In this document: positions 5,486 through 11,796 of the stretch, one piece after another
How the letters are laid out: each line of letters begins with the position of its first letter
How positions within the stretch are numbered: the stretch's first letter is position 1
Source: Parvularcula sp. IMCC14364
GTDB taxonomy: Bacteria; Pseudomonadota; Alphaproteobacteria; Caulobacterales; Parvularculaceae
Direction of reading: 5' to 3'
NCBI RefSeq assembly: GCF_030758415.1
Contig: NZ_CP132334.1
Coordinates: 2,864,001 to 2,928,000, forward strand
DNA length: 64,000 nt
Program-made: the position numbers and the translations under genes
Notes under the pieces: model-generated
What the model was told of the DNA's origin: nothing
Seen by the model: the letters and a program-made list of their open reading frames with translations, nothing else
The model's database searches: none

Positions 5486-6133
5486 ATGGGGACAGAGACA
5501 TTCCAGATTTCCTTGCAAATACATGACCTTGGCGTTGAACGCGCCGGGCGGCACATTCTTGCGGGGGTCAATTTCAGCGTTGTGCCCGGCGATGCGCTGG
5601 TTTTGCGCGGCACAAACGGCGCTGGCAAAACAAGTCTATTGCGGGCGCTTGCCGGGTTCGCCCGTGTGCAGGAAGGTGAAATCCGGTTTCTGGATGGCCC
5701 GGATATCATCCATCGGGAAGATATTGCCGCGACCCACATGCACTATCTGGGGCACGAAAATGGCGTTTCCCTCAAACTCACCGTTCTGGAGAATATCATC
5801 TCCTGGTCTCAGTTACTGGCACCACGCAACCGCCATCGTGCCGCCGATATCATTGCGCAGGTTGGTCTTTCTCTGATGGCAAGCGAGCGCGCCAGCCGCT
5901 TGTCCGCCGGGCAGAAAAGGCGGCTGGCTTTAGCCCGCCTGCTGATCGCGCCAAGGGCTGTCTGGCTGATGGACGAACCAGCCACAGCGCTGGATGCCGC
6001 AGGACAGGAACTGCTCAAAGACGTCTGCCAGCAGCACCGGGCAAAAGGTGGTATTATCGTCCTGACCGCTCACGAAGGCTTCACCCTGCCAAATGCCCAA
6101 GGGCTCCATCTGGCTGTTGGGATCCCCGCATGA
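5486..6133 (+). CDS. ccmA: Heme exporter ATP-binding subunit CcmA
   Basis: 215-residue ABC ATPase that, with CcmB, powers release of holo-CcmE in cytochrome c maturation system I. The ATG at 5486 gives a normal length; an upstream in-frame start would add an unrelated 75-residue tail. Walker A is GTNGAGKTSLL, the signature reads RLSAGQKRRLALARLL, and Walker B is VWLMDEPATALD followed by the H-loop TAHEG. The stop overlaps the ccmB start by 4 bp (ATGA), so the two are translationally coupled. Confidence 0.93.
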   Translation: MGTETFQISLQIHDLGVERAGRHILAGVNFSVVPGDALVLRGTNGAGKTSLLRALAGFARVQEGEIRFLDGPDIIHREDIAATHMHYLGHENGVSLKLTVLENIISWSQLLAPRNRHRAADIIAQVGLSLMASERASRLSAGQKRRLALARLLIAPRAVWLMDEPATALDAAGQELLKDVCQQHRAKGGIIVLTAHEGFTLPNAQGLHLAVGIPA

Positions 6134-6783
6134 CAAACGCTCTGACGCTTCTTCGACAGGAAATAATGCTGAGGACTCGCGGCAGTGCCGGGCCAGCAGC
6201 ATTAGGGTTGTTCATCCTTGCAGGTGCCCTTGCCCCCCTGTCACTGGGGACTGATGACATTTTGCTGAGCACCATTGCTCCTGGCCTATTATGGATATTT
6301 GCCTGCCTTGCCGCGTTGCTTGGCCTTGAAGGCCTGTTTCAGGATGATCTTTCGGAAGGGCGTTTCGCTGTCCTGAGACTAACGTCACAGCCGCTTTGGC
6401 TGGTCTTGCTGGTCATGATGGTCGCTTACTGGCTTGTCGTCTGCGCGCCGGTCCTGCTGGCTGCGGTACCGCTTGGCTTCCTGCTCGGCGCTGATATGTC
6501 GACCACCCTGCGGCTGTCTCTGTCACTTGCGTTAGGCACACCATCCCTGGCTTTTATCGGTGCCTGCCTGGCTGCCATATGCGCCGGCCTGCCAAGAGGA
6601 ACGGGCCTTGTCATTTTCCTTGCTCTGCCTTTCTTTGCCCCAGCCCTGATTTTCGGCGCCAGAGCCGCGACAGGCGGAGACGACATGCTCTCTGCGTTCA
6701 TGTTCCTCTCGGCCTTCAGCCTGATTGCCGTTGCCACCTGCCCTTTCATTGCGGCAGCCGCCATCAGACAAAATATGGAATAG
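6130..6783 (+). CDS. ccmB: Heme exporter membrane subunit CcmB
   Basis: 217 residues, with about six hydrophobic segments spread over the length, as expected for the membrane partner of CcmA. Positively charged LLRQEIMLRTRGS at the N-terminus and the EGLFQDDLSEGR segment near residue 65-77 are typical of CcmB. It overlaps ccmA by 4 bp. The usual next gene, ccmC, is not present: the following gene is an unrelated secreted protein, so the rest of the ccm set must lie elsewhere. Confidence 0.92.
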   Translation: MTNALTLLRQEIMLRTRGSAGPAALGLFILAGALAPLSLGTDDILLSTIAPGLLWIFACLAALLGLEGLFQDDLSEGRFAVLRLTSQPLWLVLLVMMVAYWLVVCAPVLLAAVPLGFLLGADMSTTLRLSLSLALGTPSLAFIGACLAAICAGLPRGTGLVIFLALPFFAPALIFGARAATGGDDMLSAFMFLSAFSLIAVATCPFIAAAAIRQNME

Positions 6784-6892: not shown

Positions 6893-7396
6893 ATGAACAA
6901 AGTAATTTCGACCAGTATTCTTGCCTTTATCCTGTCAGCTGCCCTGCCCGCTGCTGCACAACAGCCCACAGTCATTGCGACCTATAAAGACTGGATTGTC
7001 TACAAGCTGGATCTGGGCGGCGATACTGTGTGTTATGCCGTTACAGAGCCGACTGACAAATCGCCCCGCTCAGTCAATCATGGCGATGTTTTCTTTATGG
7101 TCTCAACCTGGTCATCAGGCGTTGCGGAGGGGCAACCAAGTTTTATCGCCGGATATGAACTGCGTGATGCACCTGAACCTGTGGTGCGTATCGGCTCTGA
7201 CAAGTGGGAAATGTACACTTCAGAGCAGGAAGGCTTTGTTGAACGGGACACCGATGAACGCCGTCTCGTATCGGCAATGAAACGGGGCAGCGACATGCAT
7301 GTCTCAGCCATTTCAGAACGCGGAACAGCGACAAATTATACGTTCTCATTACTGGGTATTACCGACTCCCTGAATCGCATTGAGAAAGACTGCTAA
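6893..7396 (+). CDS. IalB-like secreted protein
   Basis: 167 residues from the ATG at 6893 (GGAAG ribosome site 6 bp upstream). It has a signal peptide (MNKVISTSILAFILSAALPAAAQ) and then the invasion-associated locus B pattern: a YKDWIVYKLD-like opening, a single Cys in GDTVCYAVTEP, a central immunoglobulin-like beta region, and a Cys as the very last residue. The two Cys could form one disulfide across the mature domain. IalB-type proteins are widespread in non-pathogenic alphaproteobacteria and their general role is unknown. It lies between ccmB and the barrel cassette on the same strand. Confidence 0.82.
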   Translation: MNKVISTSILAFILSAALPAAAQQPTVIATYKDWIVYKLDLGGDTVCYAVTEPTDKSPRSVNHGDVFFMVSTWSSGVAEGQPSFIAGYELRDAPEPVVRIGSDKWEMYTSEQEGFVERDTDERRLVSAMKRGSDMHVSAISERGTATNYTFSLLGITDSLNRIEKDC

Positions 7397-7472: not shown

Positions 7473-8258
7473 ATGGGGTATATAAAATCAGCGCAATGCT
7501 GCGGCACTTTTTTTCTGGTATGTTTTGTGGCCATCGCAAACCCGATGGCCGCGAAAGCATCCCCTTGGCCAATGCCAGAGGGGGAAGGCCAGACGATAAC
7601 CAGAACTGAAAGCTTCACCTCACCCACATTCAGACAACTCACCACTAGCATGTACACGGAATATGGCTTAACCCCCACAGCAACCCTTACGGGCAAACTG
7701 GCATATGCAACACAAGAATATGGTGGGCAGTTCCCGGCTGCGACGCAAGGACTGACCGCCGCGGAAATCTCACTGCAGCAGCAATTCAAACGCACTGACA
7801 GATCAGTTTTTTCAGGCCAGATATCTTACGCTGCCAAAACAAACATGGATCGTATTCAACAGTCCGACAATGTGAGGTTCGCTCCTATTACCTACGGTAA
7901 TGCTGTTGAGATTTCCATCCTGACAGGCAGGAGCTTCAATAATGAAGGCACTGTGTTTTTCACCACCCAGACCGGTGTCAGACACGCACTTGGCGATGAT
8001 GCCGACCTGGTGAACTTTGAATTTACCGCAGGTATAAAGCCACTGGCGCGATGGATGATTCTTGCCAAATCACTCAATTCTATCAGTCTGCAAAATGATT
8101 CAGGTGGCGTTGATTATGATATAGCCAGGCTGGAGCCAACTATTGTCTATCACCGCAATGATCGCGCCTCATATGCTATTGGCGGTAGTTACGATATTTA
8201 CGGGCGCAACCTCCAAACTGGGAATAGTATTTTTTTCAGTATATGGAACAGGTTCTAA
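7473..8258 (+). CDS. Predicted outer-membrane beta-barrel protein (XagA-like position)
   Basis: 261 residues. A signal peptide (about residues 1-30, ending AAKASPWP) is followed by alternating polar/hydrophobic strands rich in Gly, Thr and Tyr. The C-terminus is FSIWNRF, i.e. a terminal Phe as used by the BAM machine. No conserved catalytic motif is visible. It is the first gene of a coupled cassette with a small membrane protein, a GT2 synthase and a polytopic membrane protein, so a role as outer-membrane exit pore or partner for a glycan is plausible. Gene order resembles XagABC-type biofilm loci, but I cannot verify homology. Confidence 0.72.
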   Translation: MGYIKSAQCCGTFFLVCFVAIANPMAAKASPWPMPEGEGQTITRTESFTSPTFRQLTTSMYTEYGLTPTATLTGKLAYATQEYGGQFPAATQGLTAAEISLQQQFKRTDRSVFSGQISYAAKTNMDRIQQSDNVRFAPITYGNAVEISILTGRSFNNEGTVFFTTQTGVRHALGDDADLVNFEFTAGIKPLARWMILAKSLNSISLQNDSGGVDYDIARLEPTIVYHRNDRASYAIGGSYDIYGRNLQTGNSIFFSIWNRF

Positions 8259-8266
8259 CGGTCTGA

Positions 8267-8425
8267 ATGTTTTTATTTAACCAGGAAAATATCAGTGCGC
8301 CATTACCTGATCCGTCGTTGCTGGAGAAAATAACCTACACGGAGCCGGGTGCCCTCTGGCTCCTGCTTTTTGTCCTGTTTCCCTTTTTCTATATAAAGTT
8401 TTTGCGTCACCGGAGGCGAAAGTGA
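8267..8425 (+). CDS. Small single-pass membrane protein, 52 aa
   Basis: An ATG at 8267, 8 bp after the barrel gene stop, opens a 52-codon frame that ends at TGA 8423-8425. The stop overlaps the GTG start of the glycosyltransferase (8422-8424), which is the classic coupled arrangement. The protein has a polar N-terminal 25 residues, one hydrophobic segment at about 29-45 (rich in Leu, Phe, Trp) and a strongly basic end (KFLRHRRRK), predicting N-out/C-in topology. Nothing in the sequence names a family. The tight packing and clear membrane signature make it a real gene candidate that length-based gene callers would drop. Confidence 0.7.
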   Translation: MFLFNQENISAPLPDPSLLEKITYTEPGALWLLLFVLFPFFYIKFLRHRRRK

Positions 8426-9960
8426 CTGCCACACCAGACCTGTCTGCGGAAATTTCACCCCTCATTCTTGAACTCAATGAAGACGGCATTGAGCCACGCG
8501 AACGCCAGTCCAGACTTCAAGAAATTACCGCGAAATATGAAATGCACCTCCTGGAAAAAGCTGTGTCATATTTTCAGGCGACATATCCAATCCAAAGCGC
8601 TTCAAACATTCTGACGAGGCCCCAAACATACAGCTTTATTGCAATCGCGGTATGGTTGGCTGTGATGGCATATCTTTCACCCGAGATATTGCCTCCAATG
8701 ATCAGTACTGCTTATATAACTTACTGTCTGGTGCTTGCACTTCTGCGCTGCTGGCTTTTGCTGGAATCCGTCAGAGTGCCGGAAGCCCGGGCGGCGCCCC
8801 CTGAGCATAAAGCAGACTATGAGCTGCCCGTCATCACCATACTGGTTCCACTATATCAAGAAGCTGCAAGCGTTCCCTATATACATGAAGCCCTGTCCGC
8901 GCTGGATTATCCGCAGGACAAGCTGGATATAAAAATTCTTCTCGAAGAAAATGATCTAGGCACAGAAAAAGCTGCAAGACAATATTTTCTCGATACGCAG
9001 TATCATCTGATAGTTGTGCCCGATAGCGCGCCACAGACTAAACCTAAAGCCTGTAACTATGGTCTGTGGCTTGCACGTGGTGACCTTGTTGTCGTTTACG
9101 ACGCGGAAGACAGACCGGACCCTGACCAACTCCGCATAGCAGCAAAATTATTTGCCACTGCACCAGAGCAGGTTGCCTGCGCACAGGCACGTCTGAATTA
9201 TTATAACCCGGAACGTAACGGCCTCACACGACTGTTTACTCTGGAATACACTTTCCTGTTTGATACGCTGCTGCCTGTTTTCTGCCGCCACAACATGCCG
9301 ATACCGTTGGGGGGAACATCAAATTTCTTCCGCACACACGTGCTTCAGGAAATAGGTGGCTGGGATCCTTATAATGTGACCGAAGATGCTGATATTGGTC
9401 TGAGACTGAGCGATTCCAGCTATCGGACTACAATGCTGAATTCTACGACATGGGAAGAAGCGACCCCAGACATGAGAGGCTGGCTGCGCCAGCGGTCACG
9501 CTGGATCAAGGGCTATATACAGAAATGGCTGGTACATTTGCGCCAGCCAGGCGGATCCCTGATGAGTGGTCAATTCTGGCGCAAACAGGTCACCCTCCAC
9601 TTCGTCGTCGCATCCGTTATTGTTGCTGCTTTGATTAACCCGATATTCTGGCTGCTGTTCGTGCTGTGGCTTGCAGGCTTCCAGGGAATTGAGTCCAGCT
9701 TCTTTCCTGAACCTCTCGGCGGTCTGGCCGTCACAAGCTTTCTGCTCGGGAATTTCCTGCTGGTATATCTCTACATGATTGCTCCCCTGAACAGACGGTG
9801 GCTTCAGCATACGCCTTATGCCCTGCTGTTGCCGCTTTACTGGCTGTTGCAAAGCATCGCCGGATATATGGCACTGTGGCAGCTATGCCGAAATCCCTTC
9901 TATTGGGAAAAAACGCATCACAACCCGACAACAGAAATCCCGACTGATGCGCCCTATTGA
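8422..9960 (+). CDS. Cellulose-synthase-like GT2 glycosyltransferase (XagB type)
   Basis: 512 residues, GTG start overlapping the small gene upstream. Layout: a cytosolic helical N-terminus (1-65), two membrane helices (about 70-115), a GT2 domain (about 135-370), then four or so membrane helices to residue 490. Processive-synthase residues are all visible: the DxD-like DAED at 227-230, TED at 320-322 and QRSRW at 357-361. The C-terminal NPFYWEKT motif is typical of the XagB-like subgroup. It probably polymerises a sugar chain on the cytosolic side and threads it through the membrane. Sugar donor is unknown. Confidence 0.88.
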   Translation: MTATPDLSAEISPLILELNEDGIEPRERQSRLQEITAKYEMHLLEKAVSYFQATYPIQSASNILTRPQTYSFIAIAVWLAVMAYLSPEILPPMISTAYITYCLVLALLRCWLLLESVRVPEARAAPPEHKADYELPVITILVPLYQEAASVPYIHEALSALDYPQDKLDIKILLEENDLGTEKAARQYFLDTQYHLIVVPDSAPQTKPKACNYGLWLARGDLVVVYDAEDRPDPDQLRIAAKLFATAPEQVACAQARLNYYNPERNGLTRLFTLEYTFLFDTLLPVFCRHNMPIPLGGTSNFFRTHVLQEIGGWDPYNVTEDADIGLRLSDSSYRTTMLNSTTWEEATPDMRGWLRQRSRWIKGYIQKWLVHLRQPGGSLMSGQFWRKQVTLHFVVASVIVAALINPIFWLLFVLWLAGFQGIESSFFPEPLGGLAVTSFLLGNFLLVYLYMIAPLNRRWLQHTPYALLLPLYWLLQSIAGYMALWQLCRNPFYWEKTHHNPTTEIPTDAPY

Positions 9961-10945
9961 AAGTAAATTTCCGTCAGCCCTCGTTATGGGTTCAGCAAGC
10001 TTGCTCGTTGCAATGGCCATACTGCTATTCGGGTTCTCGCCATTATCCCAAGAGCAGCCTTCTGGGTATGGTTGGGCCATCAGTTTGCTGACATACCTGC
10101 AATCAACCATACCGATCGCTGTGTCGACCATTCTGCTGCTCACTTTTTTCAGTATAAGCACGGCTGTTACCATTACTTACACAAGGCAACCTTTAGTGCG
10201 ACTGTCCTTATCGAACATGGTCATGTTAGCCTTATGTCTGACGAACCCGTTGTTATTATGGTGCTTCACAAGTTCTGAAACTTATCTGATACCCTGCCTG
10301 TCGATGATCCTGTGGTCATTATGCGCGTCACTTCAGCAACGCACATTCTCACGCAACGCCGTCATTGTCGGCCTCTCACTGTTGGTATTGTTTTCTGCTG
10401 CAATGCCTTTTTTCTGGCTTGTACTGCCAGTACTTGCCAGTCTTACAGTCCTGATCTCACCGCGCCTTCTGATAAAACATCAACTGACACCCTTCCTGAT
10501 TATCATGATGCCGTTGATTTTCGCTGGTGCTGGCTTTTATTACTGGTTCTGGAGTACAGGCGAGGCATCTGATCTGTGGCGCTTCTTCACCAACGTCCGC
10601 GATACCAGCACAATCTGGGAGATACGCCATGAAGGCCGCTTCGCCTCAGCCATGGCAGAGATGGCGTGCTGGGCGTTGCTGATATGCCCCCTTGTTGTGC
10701 TTGGCCTGTTTCAGGCACCATCGGCCTTGAAGAAAAGGCTTTGTGGCTGCCTTGTTCTCATACCTGTATTGGGCGCCGCAATCGGAAGTGATTTTCATGC
10801 ACTCCCAACGCCCCTTCCTCATCTGGCGATGCTGGCCACAGCACATATCTGGATGTCCGGCGTGCTGAAGCCTTACCACGCTCTTGCCGGACACTATGTT
10901 TCATGGCTAGGGAGCTATCTTGCTATCTGGTATTATACCCCATGA
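9947..10945 (+). CDS. Polytopic membrane protein of the glycan cassette
   Basis: 332 residues from the ATG at 9947, which lies inside the 3' end of the glycosyltransferase (14-bp overlap). About eight to ten hydrophobic helices cover nearly the whole chain; no catalytic motif stands out. The pattern of paired helices resembles glycosyltransferase-associated or Dpm-like membrane proteins, but this is weak. The stop overlaps the dapF start (ATGA at 10942-10945), so it is coupled on both sides. Likely a partner of the synthase. Confidence 0.7.
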   Translation: MRPIESKFPSALVMGSASLLVAMAILLFGFSPLSQEQPSGYGWAISLLTYLQSTIPIAVSTILLLTFFSISTAVTITYTRQPLVRLSLSNMVMLALCLTNPLLLWCFTSSETYLIPCLSMILWSLCASLQQRTFSRNAVIVGLSLLVLFSAAMPFFWLVLPVLASLTVLISPRLLIKHQLTPFLIIMMPLIFAGAGFYYWFWSTGEASDLWRFFTNVRDTSTIWEIRHEGRFASAMAEMACWALLICPLVVLGLFQAPSALKKRLCGCLVLIPVLGAAIGSDFHALPTPLPHLAMLATAHIWMSGVLKPYHALAGHYVSWLGSYLAIWYYTP

Positions 10946-11796
10946 CCGACGCGTTATTTGATCTCACTGGCCTCCCATTCTGGAAAATGAATGGTCTTGG
11001 TAATGATTTCGTCATTGTAGACCTGCGCCGTACCAGCCACAGGATGACCGAGGAAGCGGCGATCACCCTTGGCGCGCGTGACGGCGCCTATGGATGCGAT
11101 CAGATCATTACGCTGGAGAGTCGCGCCGGTGAGCCTTACATGGGTATCTGGAATGCTGATGGTTCGGAGGCAGGTGCCTGCGGCAATGCTGCACGCTGCA
11201 TTGGCTGGCTGTTGATGAAAGAGAGTGGCGCCCAGGGTGTAGCCTTCCTGACCCCGGCAGGTGAGGTTGAAGCGCAATGGATTGGCAACGAACGTATCAG
11301 CGTTGATATGGGCGAGCCACGCCTGAAGTGGCAGGATATTCCCCTGGCAGAACAAATGGATGATACACGTTTCATTGATATCAAGCTGGGGCCTATCGAT
11401 AACCCGGTTCTCTGGGGGCCGTCTGCGGTCAACATGGGTAATCCGCACTGCATCTTCTTTGTAGATGATGTGAGCGCCCATCAACTCGATAAATTCGGGC
11501 CCATGATTGAGCATCATCCGCTTTTCCCGGAGCGGGCCAATATTTCAATCGCACAGGTGCGCGGACAATATGATATCCGTCTGCGTGTTTGGGAGCGTGG
11601 CGCTGGCATCACCAGAGCATGCGGCACGGCAGCATGTGCCGCTCTTGTTGCTGCAAACAGGCGACGCCTTACAGCGCGCAAGGCTAGCGTGGAACTTGAT
11701 GGCGGCACACTGGCGATTGAATGGCGGGAGAGCGACGATCATGTCATCATGGCCGGGCCGGTAGAGTTGGAGCATCAGGGGACTCTCAGTCGTTAA
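10942..11796 (+). CDS. dapF: Diaminopimelate epimerase
   Basis: 284 residues from the ATG at 10942. It converts LL- to meso-diaminopimelate for lysine and peptidoglycan. Opens with FWKMNGLGNDFVIVD. The two catalytic cysteines are visible in GACGNAARC (about residue 76) and RACGTAACAAL (about residue 226), with the substrate-binding VNMGNPHCI between them. Start chosen because it overlaps the preceding stop by 4 bp and gives the family length. dapD lies at 41.7 kb, so the succinylase branch of the pathway is used. Confidence 0.96.
   Translation: MTDALFDLTGLPFWKMNGLGNDFVIVDLRRTSHRMTEEAAITLGARDGAYGCDQIITLESRAGEPYMGIWNADGSEAGACGNAARCIGWLLMKESGAQGVAFLTPAGEVEAQWIGNERISVDMGEPRLKWQDIPLAEQMDDTRFIDIKLGPIDNPVLWGPSAVNMGNPHCIFFVDDVSAHQLDKFGPMIEHHPLFPERANISIAQVRGQYDIRLRVWERGAGITRACGTAACAALVAANRRRLTARKASVELDGGTLAIEWRESDDHVIMAGPVELEHQGTLSR

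Follow-up and report, generated by a model that had tools for sequence, protein, structure and literature searches.

Xag-type gene clusters have been implicated in the biofilm of Xanthomonas and in the stalks of iron-oxidizing bacteria; their polymer is uncharacterised and the function of some of their parts is unknown. According to PMC3609779, deletion of xagA or xagB lowers the biofilm of an rpfG mutant of Xanthomonas oryzae, and the Xanthomonas xag operon includes a gene for XagD; PMC3528676 calls the Xag polymer uncharacterised. Related stalk clusters (sfz/sfb) are described in iron-oxidizing Zeta- and Betaproteobacteria, with Sfz3 listed as being of unknown function (PMC4643136, PMC8250860), and xagA is reported as not found in two Ferriphaselus genomes (PMC4643136). 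Here we analyze a cassette of four genes at positions 7473 to 10945 of a 64,000-nucleotide stretch of the Parvularcula sp. IMCC14364 genome (contig NZ_CP132334.1, positions 2,864,001 to 2,928,000; hereafter the window). The cassette likely encodes a reduced XagABC-type, synthase-dependent polysaccharide system, and the surface polysaccharide that it would make is probably no longer gated by cyclic di-GMP (c-di-GMP).

The closest described system is Xanthomonas XagABC(D), which has a homologous barrel, a glycosyltransferase family 2 (GT2) synthase and the polytopic protein XagC in the order A-B-C (locus L088; L, G and f numbers are our handles for loci, genomes and families). The resemblance to XagABC proposed in an initial annotation of the window is now one of homology, through a profile match of XagA in Xanthomonas, 43% identity for XagB and profile comparison for XagC. 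The window differs in that its XagB lacks the N-terminal MshEN domain carried by Xanthomonas XagB, and in its extra gene of 52 amino acids (aa), its shortened XagC and the absence of an xagD gene, dapF lying directly after xagC. By their descriptions, the sfz/sfb clusters also combine an XagB-like GT2 with an XagC-like protein, which from gene order and length may be Sfz3; unlike the window they include a BcsB-like protein, a glycosyl hydrolase and a domain on Sfz2 resembling the N-terminal domain of the type II secretion system ATPase (T2SS-E) (PMC4643136, PMC8250860). The Escherichia coli NfrBA-YbcH system, the synthase of the N4 glycan receptor, is likewise described as a small operon with a GT2 synthase and an outer-membrane partner, with NfrB under the control of an MshEN domain (PMC8669469). 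By description, however, NfrA is a barrel containing tetratricopeptide repeats and the MshEN of NfrB is C-terminal, whereas the window XagB has none. The GT2 catalytic domain is shared with the cellulose synthase BcsABC, and the window XagB has sequence matches to 4hg6 and 4p00; it nevertheless scores far below the NCBIfam CelA cut-off and comes from a family in which no BcsB match was found in 37 of 37 genomes. Taken as a whole, the initial annotation is partly supported: the barrel, the GT2 synthase and the Xag likeness stand, while the secretion role and the tie to dapF need to be qualified.

Members of the cassette

All four genes were confirmed as real by the open reading frame (ORF) listing and by reading the window sequence, and the tight packing claimed earlier is exact, with spacings of +8 (genes 1-2), -4 (genes 2-3), -14 (genes 3-4) and -4 bp (gene 4-dapF). 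The features are as follows.

7473..8258, plus strand: gene 1, xagA homologue, 261 aa, 12-strand outer-membrane barrel with a signal-like segment at about residues 1-28
8267..8425, plus strand: gene 2, small membrane protein, 52 aa, an ORF with a C-terminal hydrophobic segment and the basic tail RHRRRK
8422..9960, plus strand: gene 3, xagB homologue, 512 aa, GTG start, GT2 synthase without MshEN
9097..9111, plus strand: YDAED motif of gene 3 (catalytic/substrate aspartates), from sequence, invariant in 18 sequences
9379..9387, plus strand: TED motif of gene 3, from sequence, invariant in 18 sequences
9490..9504, plus strand: QRSRW motif of gene 3 (QxxRW of processive GT2 enzymes), with Q357, R358, R360 and W361 invariant
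9947..10945, plus strand: gene 4, shortened xagC homologue, 332 aa, polytopic, from hhalign to the XagC profile and alignment
10942..11796, plus strand: dapF, a neighbour outside the glycan machine (TIGR00652, 2.3e-70; ATG at 10942)
6893..7396, plus strand: IalB-family gene, upstream neighbour outside the cassette (PF06776, 2.9e-06)
6130-6783: ccmB, upstream, from family search

Gene 4 has its ATG at 9947, within a longest listed open frame that begins at 9818, and the dapF ATG overlaps the xagC stop. An ABC-type ORF before ccmB is read as ccmA. A promoter and terminator scan was uninformative (6 sites against 7.4 expected; 9 against 7.9 expected).

The gene 3 protein belongs to the XagB family of GT2 synthases. 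It matches PF13632 at 6.8e-27 and carries the DxD-like, TED and QxxRW motifs, whose YDAED, TED and Q357, R358, R360 and W361 residues are invariant in an 18-member alignment; the processive GT2 residues noted in the initial annotation are thus present. It scores 62.3 bits with the TIGR03937 model of the poly-N-acetylglucosamine synthases PgaC/IcaA (cut-off 422.3) and 59.6 bits with the BcsA/CelA equivalog TIGR03030 (cut-off 699.1), and thus qualifies as neither. There are at least 586 XagB relatives in the named genome collection, and the best 80, which were kept, include proteins from Xanthomonas (43% identity), Paenibacillus, Nocardioides, Chloroflexi and Mucilaginibacter; the closest named record among the matches listed is an Aquisalinus metagenome-assembled genome (L082, JALEGJ010000076.1; XagB 63%). 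Our sample comprises 37 genomes of the family Parvularculaceae (f1) and genomes of the other four families of the order (f2-f5). In a tree of 76 GT2s the 28 XagBs of the family form one clade (0.97) and 21 GT2s from f2-f5 form a separate one (0.99). We therefore dropped as support the co-occurrence of XagA and GT2 in f3-f5 (15 with both, 1 with GT2 only, 2 with neither). From its motifs and the mechanism of cellulose synthase, XagB would build a polymer from a nucleotide sugar in the inner membrane, moving the chain through a membrane channel of its own.

The gene 1 protein has no match to a Pfam or NCBIfam family. Its AlphaFold2 model, built from 16 sequences with a mean predicted local distance difference test (pLDDT) score of 85.3, predicts a low-confidence N-terminal signal-like segment (residues 1-28) followed by 12 strands, counting 111-120 and 125-130 as one; this agrees with the earlier suggestion of an outer-membrane barrel. 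The top fold match in the PDB is the COG4313 channel 4rl8 (Z 22.8, root mean square deviation (rmsd) 2.7, 229 residues aligned), followed by FapF 5o65 (Z 22.5, rmsd 2.8, 226 aligned), NalP (Z 22.0), NanC (Z 20.3) and KdgM (Z 20.2). An iterated hidden Markov model started from gene 1 ended with 43 frames, one of them directly upstream of XagB in Xanthomonas cucurbitae (L088). Since the profile reaches the barrel adjoining XagB in Xanthomonas, we name gene 1 XagA, and the window thus has an XagA-family outer-membrane barrel adjoining xagB. Among 75 named loci of the best 80, with classes assigned by us from record titles and some contigs short, XagB has an XagA nearby at 9 of 14 proteobacterial loci, 4 of 12 others, 0 of 18 from Bacteroidota and 0 of 31 of monoderm type. 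Its absence from the monoderm-type loci fits an outer-membrane role for XagA. From its fold, linkage and co-occurrence, the barrel may let the polymer exit through the outer membrane or anchor it there.

A 12-strand barrel also raises the alternative that the product is not a free exopolysaccharide but a short oligosaccharide, or a glycan attached to some part of the envelope such as a lipid or an outer-membrane protein, with XagA acting as an oligosaccharide porin or anchor. The barrel resembles NanC and KdgM, which are 12-strand oligosaccharide porins, no BcsB gene occurs in the family and the operon is small, all of which would suit such a product. The barrel matches protein translocators and other channels (4rl8, FapF, NalP) equally well or better, however, XagB retains QxxRW and TED, which are motifs of processive synthases, and the Xanthomonas homologue of XagB supports biofilm according to PMC3609779. 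We regard an oligosaccharide product as quite unlikely, and prefer the synthesis of a polysaccharide by a reduced Xag system.

XagA-like barrels were also seen at five f3-f5 loci with no GT2 nearby (L163, L166, L168, L170 and L174; e.g. L168:6864-7646), where the neighbours, as read from sequence, are mostly NAD-kinase-like, DUF2336-like and cytochrome c-like genes.

Gene 4 encodes a polytopic XagC homologue that follows xagB in shortened form. In hhalign comparisons against a 12-sequence XagC profile its probability is 87% on its own (score 50) and 95% (score 66) when pooled with two relatives, whereas the ccmB and ispZ profiles score 13 and 20 on the same group. The controls were 36 of 45 other polytopic frames, all scoring below 26; the remaining nine scored at least 46 and were dropped, as phmmer shows all of them to be similar to XagC proteins (eight with at least 15 XagC matches and L064 with one at 1.2e-09). 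No Pfam family was found for XagC with the L107 and L088 proteins as queries. The model of a full-length XagC of 484 aa (L107; pLDDT 90.8, predicted template modelling score 0.91) has 50 listed fold matches that consist of GT-C glycosyltransferases, complexes containing them and a few glycosylphosphatidylinositol-transamidase subunits, the best being ArnT (Z 17.7, rmsd 5.7, 409 aligned), Pmt4 (Z 17.2) and AftA (Z 16.7). Foldseek alone gives weaker matches (best E 1.9e-04, template modelling score about 0.5). As modelled, the full-length XagC of L107 thus has a GT-C glycosyltransferase fold, and the window protein is a shortened relative of proteins with this fold.

The window protein itself is truncated. 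In the alignment it ends where the soluble C-terminal domain of full-length XagC begins. In 28 of 36 aligned rows a single column of the first outer loop holds an acidic residue (D/E), which stands one column earlier in L107 and L116 and one later in L109 and is lacking in L099 and L106; the rows of the window, L082 and Xanthomonas have a gap at this column. Gene 4 differs from GT-C enzymes such as ArnT, Pmt4 and AftA both in lacking the soluble domain and in having no aligned acid in this loop. Family XagC proteins are about 220 to 354 aa long where found. By an automatic rule (at least five hydrophobic segments, more than 180 aa), an XagC-like polytopic ORF is present in 15 of 27 family loci, and in 8 loci dapF directly follows XagB with no XagC between. 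Because full-length XagC has a GT-C fold, XagC is probably not an exporter, and the shortened form without its soluble domain would probably be an accessory protein or a relic and not an active enzyme. Of the complete secretion route put forward in the initial annotation, the barrel and the GT2 synthase remain, while the polytopic protein belongs to a GT-C-fold family, is truncated, and secretion is not its most likely contribution.

An apparent natural fusion of XagB and XagC in G028 (L063:7875-9977, a 700-aa frame) was rejected, as the conserved C-terminus of XagB is read in a shifted frame; this frameshift joining the two frames is either a sequencing error or decay.

Gene 2, the extra small gene pointed out earlier, is present and very likely coding, since comparison with a close relative (G004, L031) gives 0.91 for the proportion of synonymous differences (pS) and 0.42 for nonsynonymous differences (pN), with no stops. 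Of 25 family loci, 10 have a frame of 47 to 92 aa between xagA and xagB, and every one of the 10 belongs to genus g1 or g3; a 26th locus, L065, was set aside since an insertion fills the gap. Each counterpart has a hydrophobic segment, and most also have a basic tail. Judged by its position, the 52-aa protein may be a small accessory subunit of the synthase. PgaD and IcaD are accessory subunits of their synthases.

In f4 and f5, a protein of 71-74 aa with two hydrophobic segments is encoded directly after the XagB-like GT2 (L052:9387-9602, L069:9387-9602, L078:9356-9574 and L057:9186-9410). These genes were rejected as counterparts of gene 2, being dissimilar to it, and were not pooled.

Several observations weigh against a reduced Xag polysaccharide system. 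The exporters of other synthase systems are 16- to 18-strand barrels, and no polysaccharide exporter of this size is among the 50 listed fold matches of the barrel, which excludes nothing; the 12-strand barrel is narrower, so that a direct role as pore is unproven. XagB stands without a nearby XagA at 5 of 14 loci from Proteobacteria and at 8 of 12 in the group of others, and the absence of XagA from the Bacteroidota loci suggests that some diderms can do without it. In f2 (6 genomes) XagB-like genes are present without a strong XagA match, and the XagA homologues of f3-f5 are unlinked to GT2, so XagA-like barrels may serve other roles. The XagC of L031, the close relative of the window, reaches 8% alone against the XagC profile, and other family proteins are also low (L041 7%; L038, L050, L060 and L061 below 3%); these low-scoring proteins are assigned by position, and that of L031 also by 42% identity to the window protein (L082 is the same protein). 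The cassette has also been repeatedly lost or broken within the family (three clean absences, two insertions and the remnants in G024). Finally, support for the members in this window comes from sequence and models, not biochemistry, and extends a system whose polymer is itself uncharacterised.

Absence of the c-di-GMP receptor domain

MshEN is a c-di-GMP receptor domain (PMC5013675). Of the XagBs scanned, 27 of 29 from other groups carry it, Xanthomonas XagB included, against none of 24 from the family, and it has no match anywhere in the genome of the window. The scan thus makes MshEN a typical feature of XagB relatives, which in the cited literature is not presented as a defining one. BcsB (PF03170) is likewise found in 0 of 37 family genomes. 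According to PMC4624772, xagABC was expected to encode a c-di-GMP binder, and from sequence the MshEN of Xanthomonas XagB is a candidate for this receptor. Neither a GT-C fold for XagC nor an MshEN domain in XagB was seen mentioned in the literature searched; the MshEN point is only partly new, since Sfz2 has been described with a T2SS-E N-terminal domain, which is the same kind of domain (PMC4643136, PMC8250860).

Other Xag loci have further parts. In L107 the gene order is a BcsB-like protein, XagB, XagC, a REC-GGDEF protein and XagA, and in L103 a gene for a glycoside hydrolase of family 113 (GH113; L103:12510-13577) lies beside XagA on the opposite strand. None of these extras (BcsB-like, REC-GGDEF, GH113) lies beside the genes of the window, and GH113 has no match in the genome of the window. 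A mannanase is linked to dispersal of Xanthomonas biofilm in PMC3528676; the GH113 gene beside XagA in L103 hints at a mannan-like polymer, which is only a lead.

Given the lack of MshEN and BcsB, and of any XagD or GH113 gene next to the cassette, output would probably be set by transcription with the dapF operon and not by direct c-di-GMP binding. An alternative is that the response to c-di-GMP is kept through another site or partner, by analogy with BgsA, which is reported to bind c-di-GMP without a predictable domain (PMC5567048). The six GGDEF matches in the genome of the window speak for this, but MshEN is missing from every family XagB scanned and from this genome, and the cassette has no XagD-like gene. 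A retained response is possible, though we find it doubtful, and we favour synthesis without a c-di-GMP gate. More tentatively, and at no better than modest odds for the scenario as a whole, the Parvularculaceae may have stripped a c-di-GMP-gated, GT-C-decorated machine down to a constitutive XagA-XagB core under the dapF operon, with XagC and Sfz3 proteins more widely acting as GT-C enzymes by which a lipid-linked sugar is transferred onto the GT2 chain in the periplasm. If so, a biofilm switch would have been turned into a growth-coupled envelope glycan. The Parvularculaceae variant would be a natural experiment in the removal of a c-di-GMP gate.

Linkage to dapF and loss in Parvularculaceae

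Both XagA and XagB are present in 31 of the 37 family genomes, counting G022 on a weak XagA fragment; neither is present in 5, two of which are incomplete (G021, G035), and G024 has an XagB remnant alone. The two proteins are thus jointly present or jointly absent in 36 of 37 genomes, counts that are not independent of ancestry. The genes are adjacent on one contig in 29 of 31, which is beyond chance; the exceptions are G013 and G022, the latter with the two genes on separate contigs. The expectation that all four genes stay together accordingly holds for xagA and xagB, but not for the small gene (10 of 25 loci) or the XagC-like ORF (15 of 27).

In G013, XagA lies beside another GT2 and a different polytopic gene (L179:6185-9878); the GT2 is 28% identical to that of the window, and the 450-aa polytopic protein looks from its sequence like a GT-C enzyme.

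In 29 of 32 genomes dapF is preceded, at no more than about 1.3 kb, by XagB or the C-terminal portion of it; the exceptions are G013, G032 and G017 (contig end). A possible dapF start overlaps the preceding xag stop or lies at most 66 bases from it in 17 of 19 xag loci measured; four more loci gave no motif. The upstream side of the cassette is variable, with ccm-ialB in some genera and acnA in others. This persistent linkage despite changing upstream neighbours, together with the close dapF starts, could indicate that the cassette is functionally tied to cell-wall growth through dapF, by a shared substrate pool or coordinated regulation. Such linkage can reflect only a shared promoter, and dapF is unlinked to GT2 in all 22 genomes with an XagB-like gene from the other four families. 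Moreover, dapF is kept where the cassette is absent: it lies about 200 bases after ialB in G003 and 47-49 bases after acnA in G014 and G033, with no xag sequence found between. The cassette was earlier described as hard-wired to a peptidoglycan-precursor gene, which is true of its position; because dapF persists at sites without the cassette, a functional tie is not supported by position alone, and we consider one unlikely. In dapF and acnA trees G003, G014 and G033 fall inside cassette-bearing groups, although several nodes are weak. The cassette is thus a unit that keeps largely to one site yet can be removed, and it is dispensable.

These losses raise the alternative that in this lineage the cassette is a relic in decay and does little. 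It is absent in G003, G014 and G033, where the site is otherwise intact; xagB is interrupted in G034 and G036 by elements encoding IS1595-type transposases, remnants are left in G024, a frameshift occurs in G028, and XagC ranges from 354 to about 220 aa or is absent. In the window, on the other hand, none of the four frames is broken and XagB retains every motif; relative to G004, nonsynonymous change is well below synonymous change for the barrel, XagB, XagC and the small protein, with synonymous sites near saturation; and xagA and xagB both persist in 31 of 37 genomes, two of them with the interrupted xagB. Decay is a highly improbable account of the window, which we read as a probable reduced Xag system.

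The IS1595-type elements carry passenger genes (L064, about 8.5-12.1 kb, with a DUF6471 protein as one passenger; L065, about 7.1-10.7 kb); the two occur in different genera, each at its own point within xagB.

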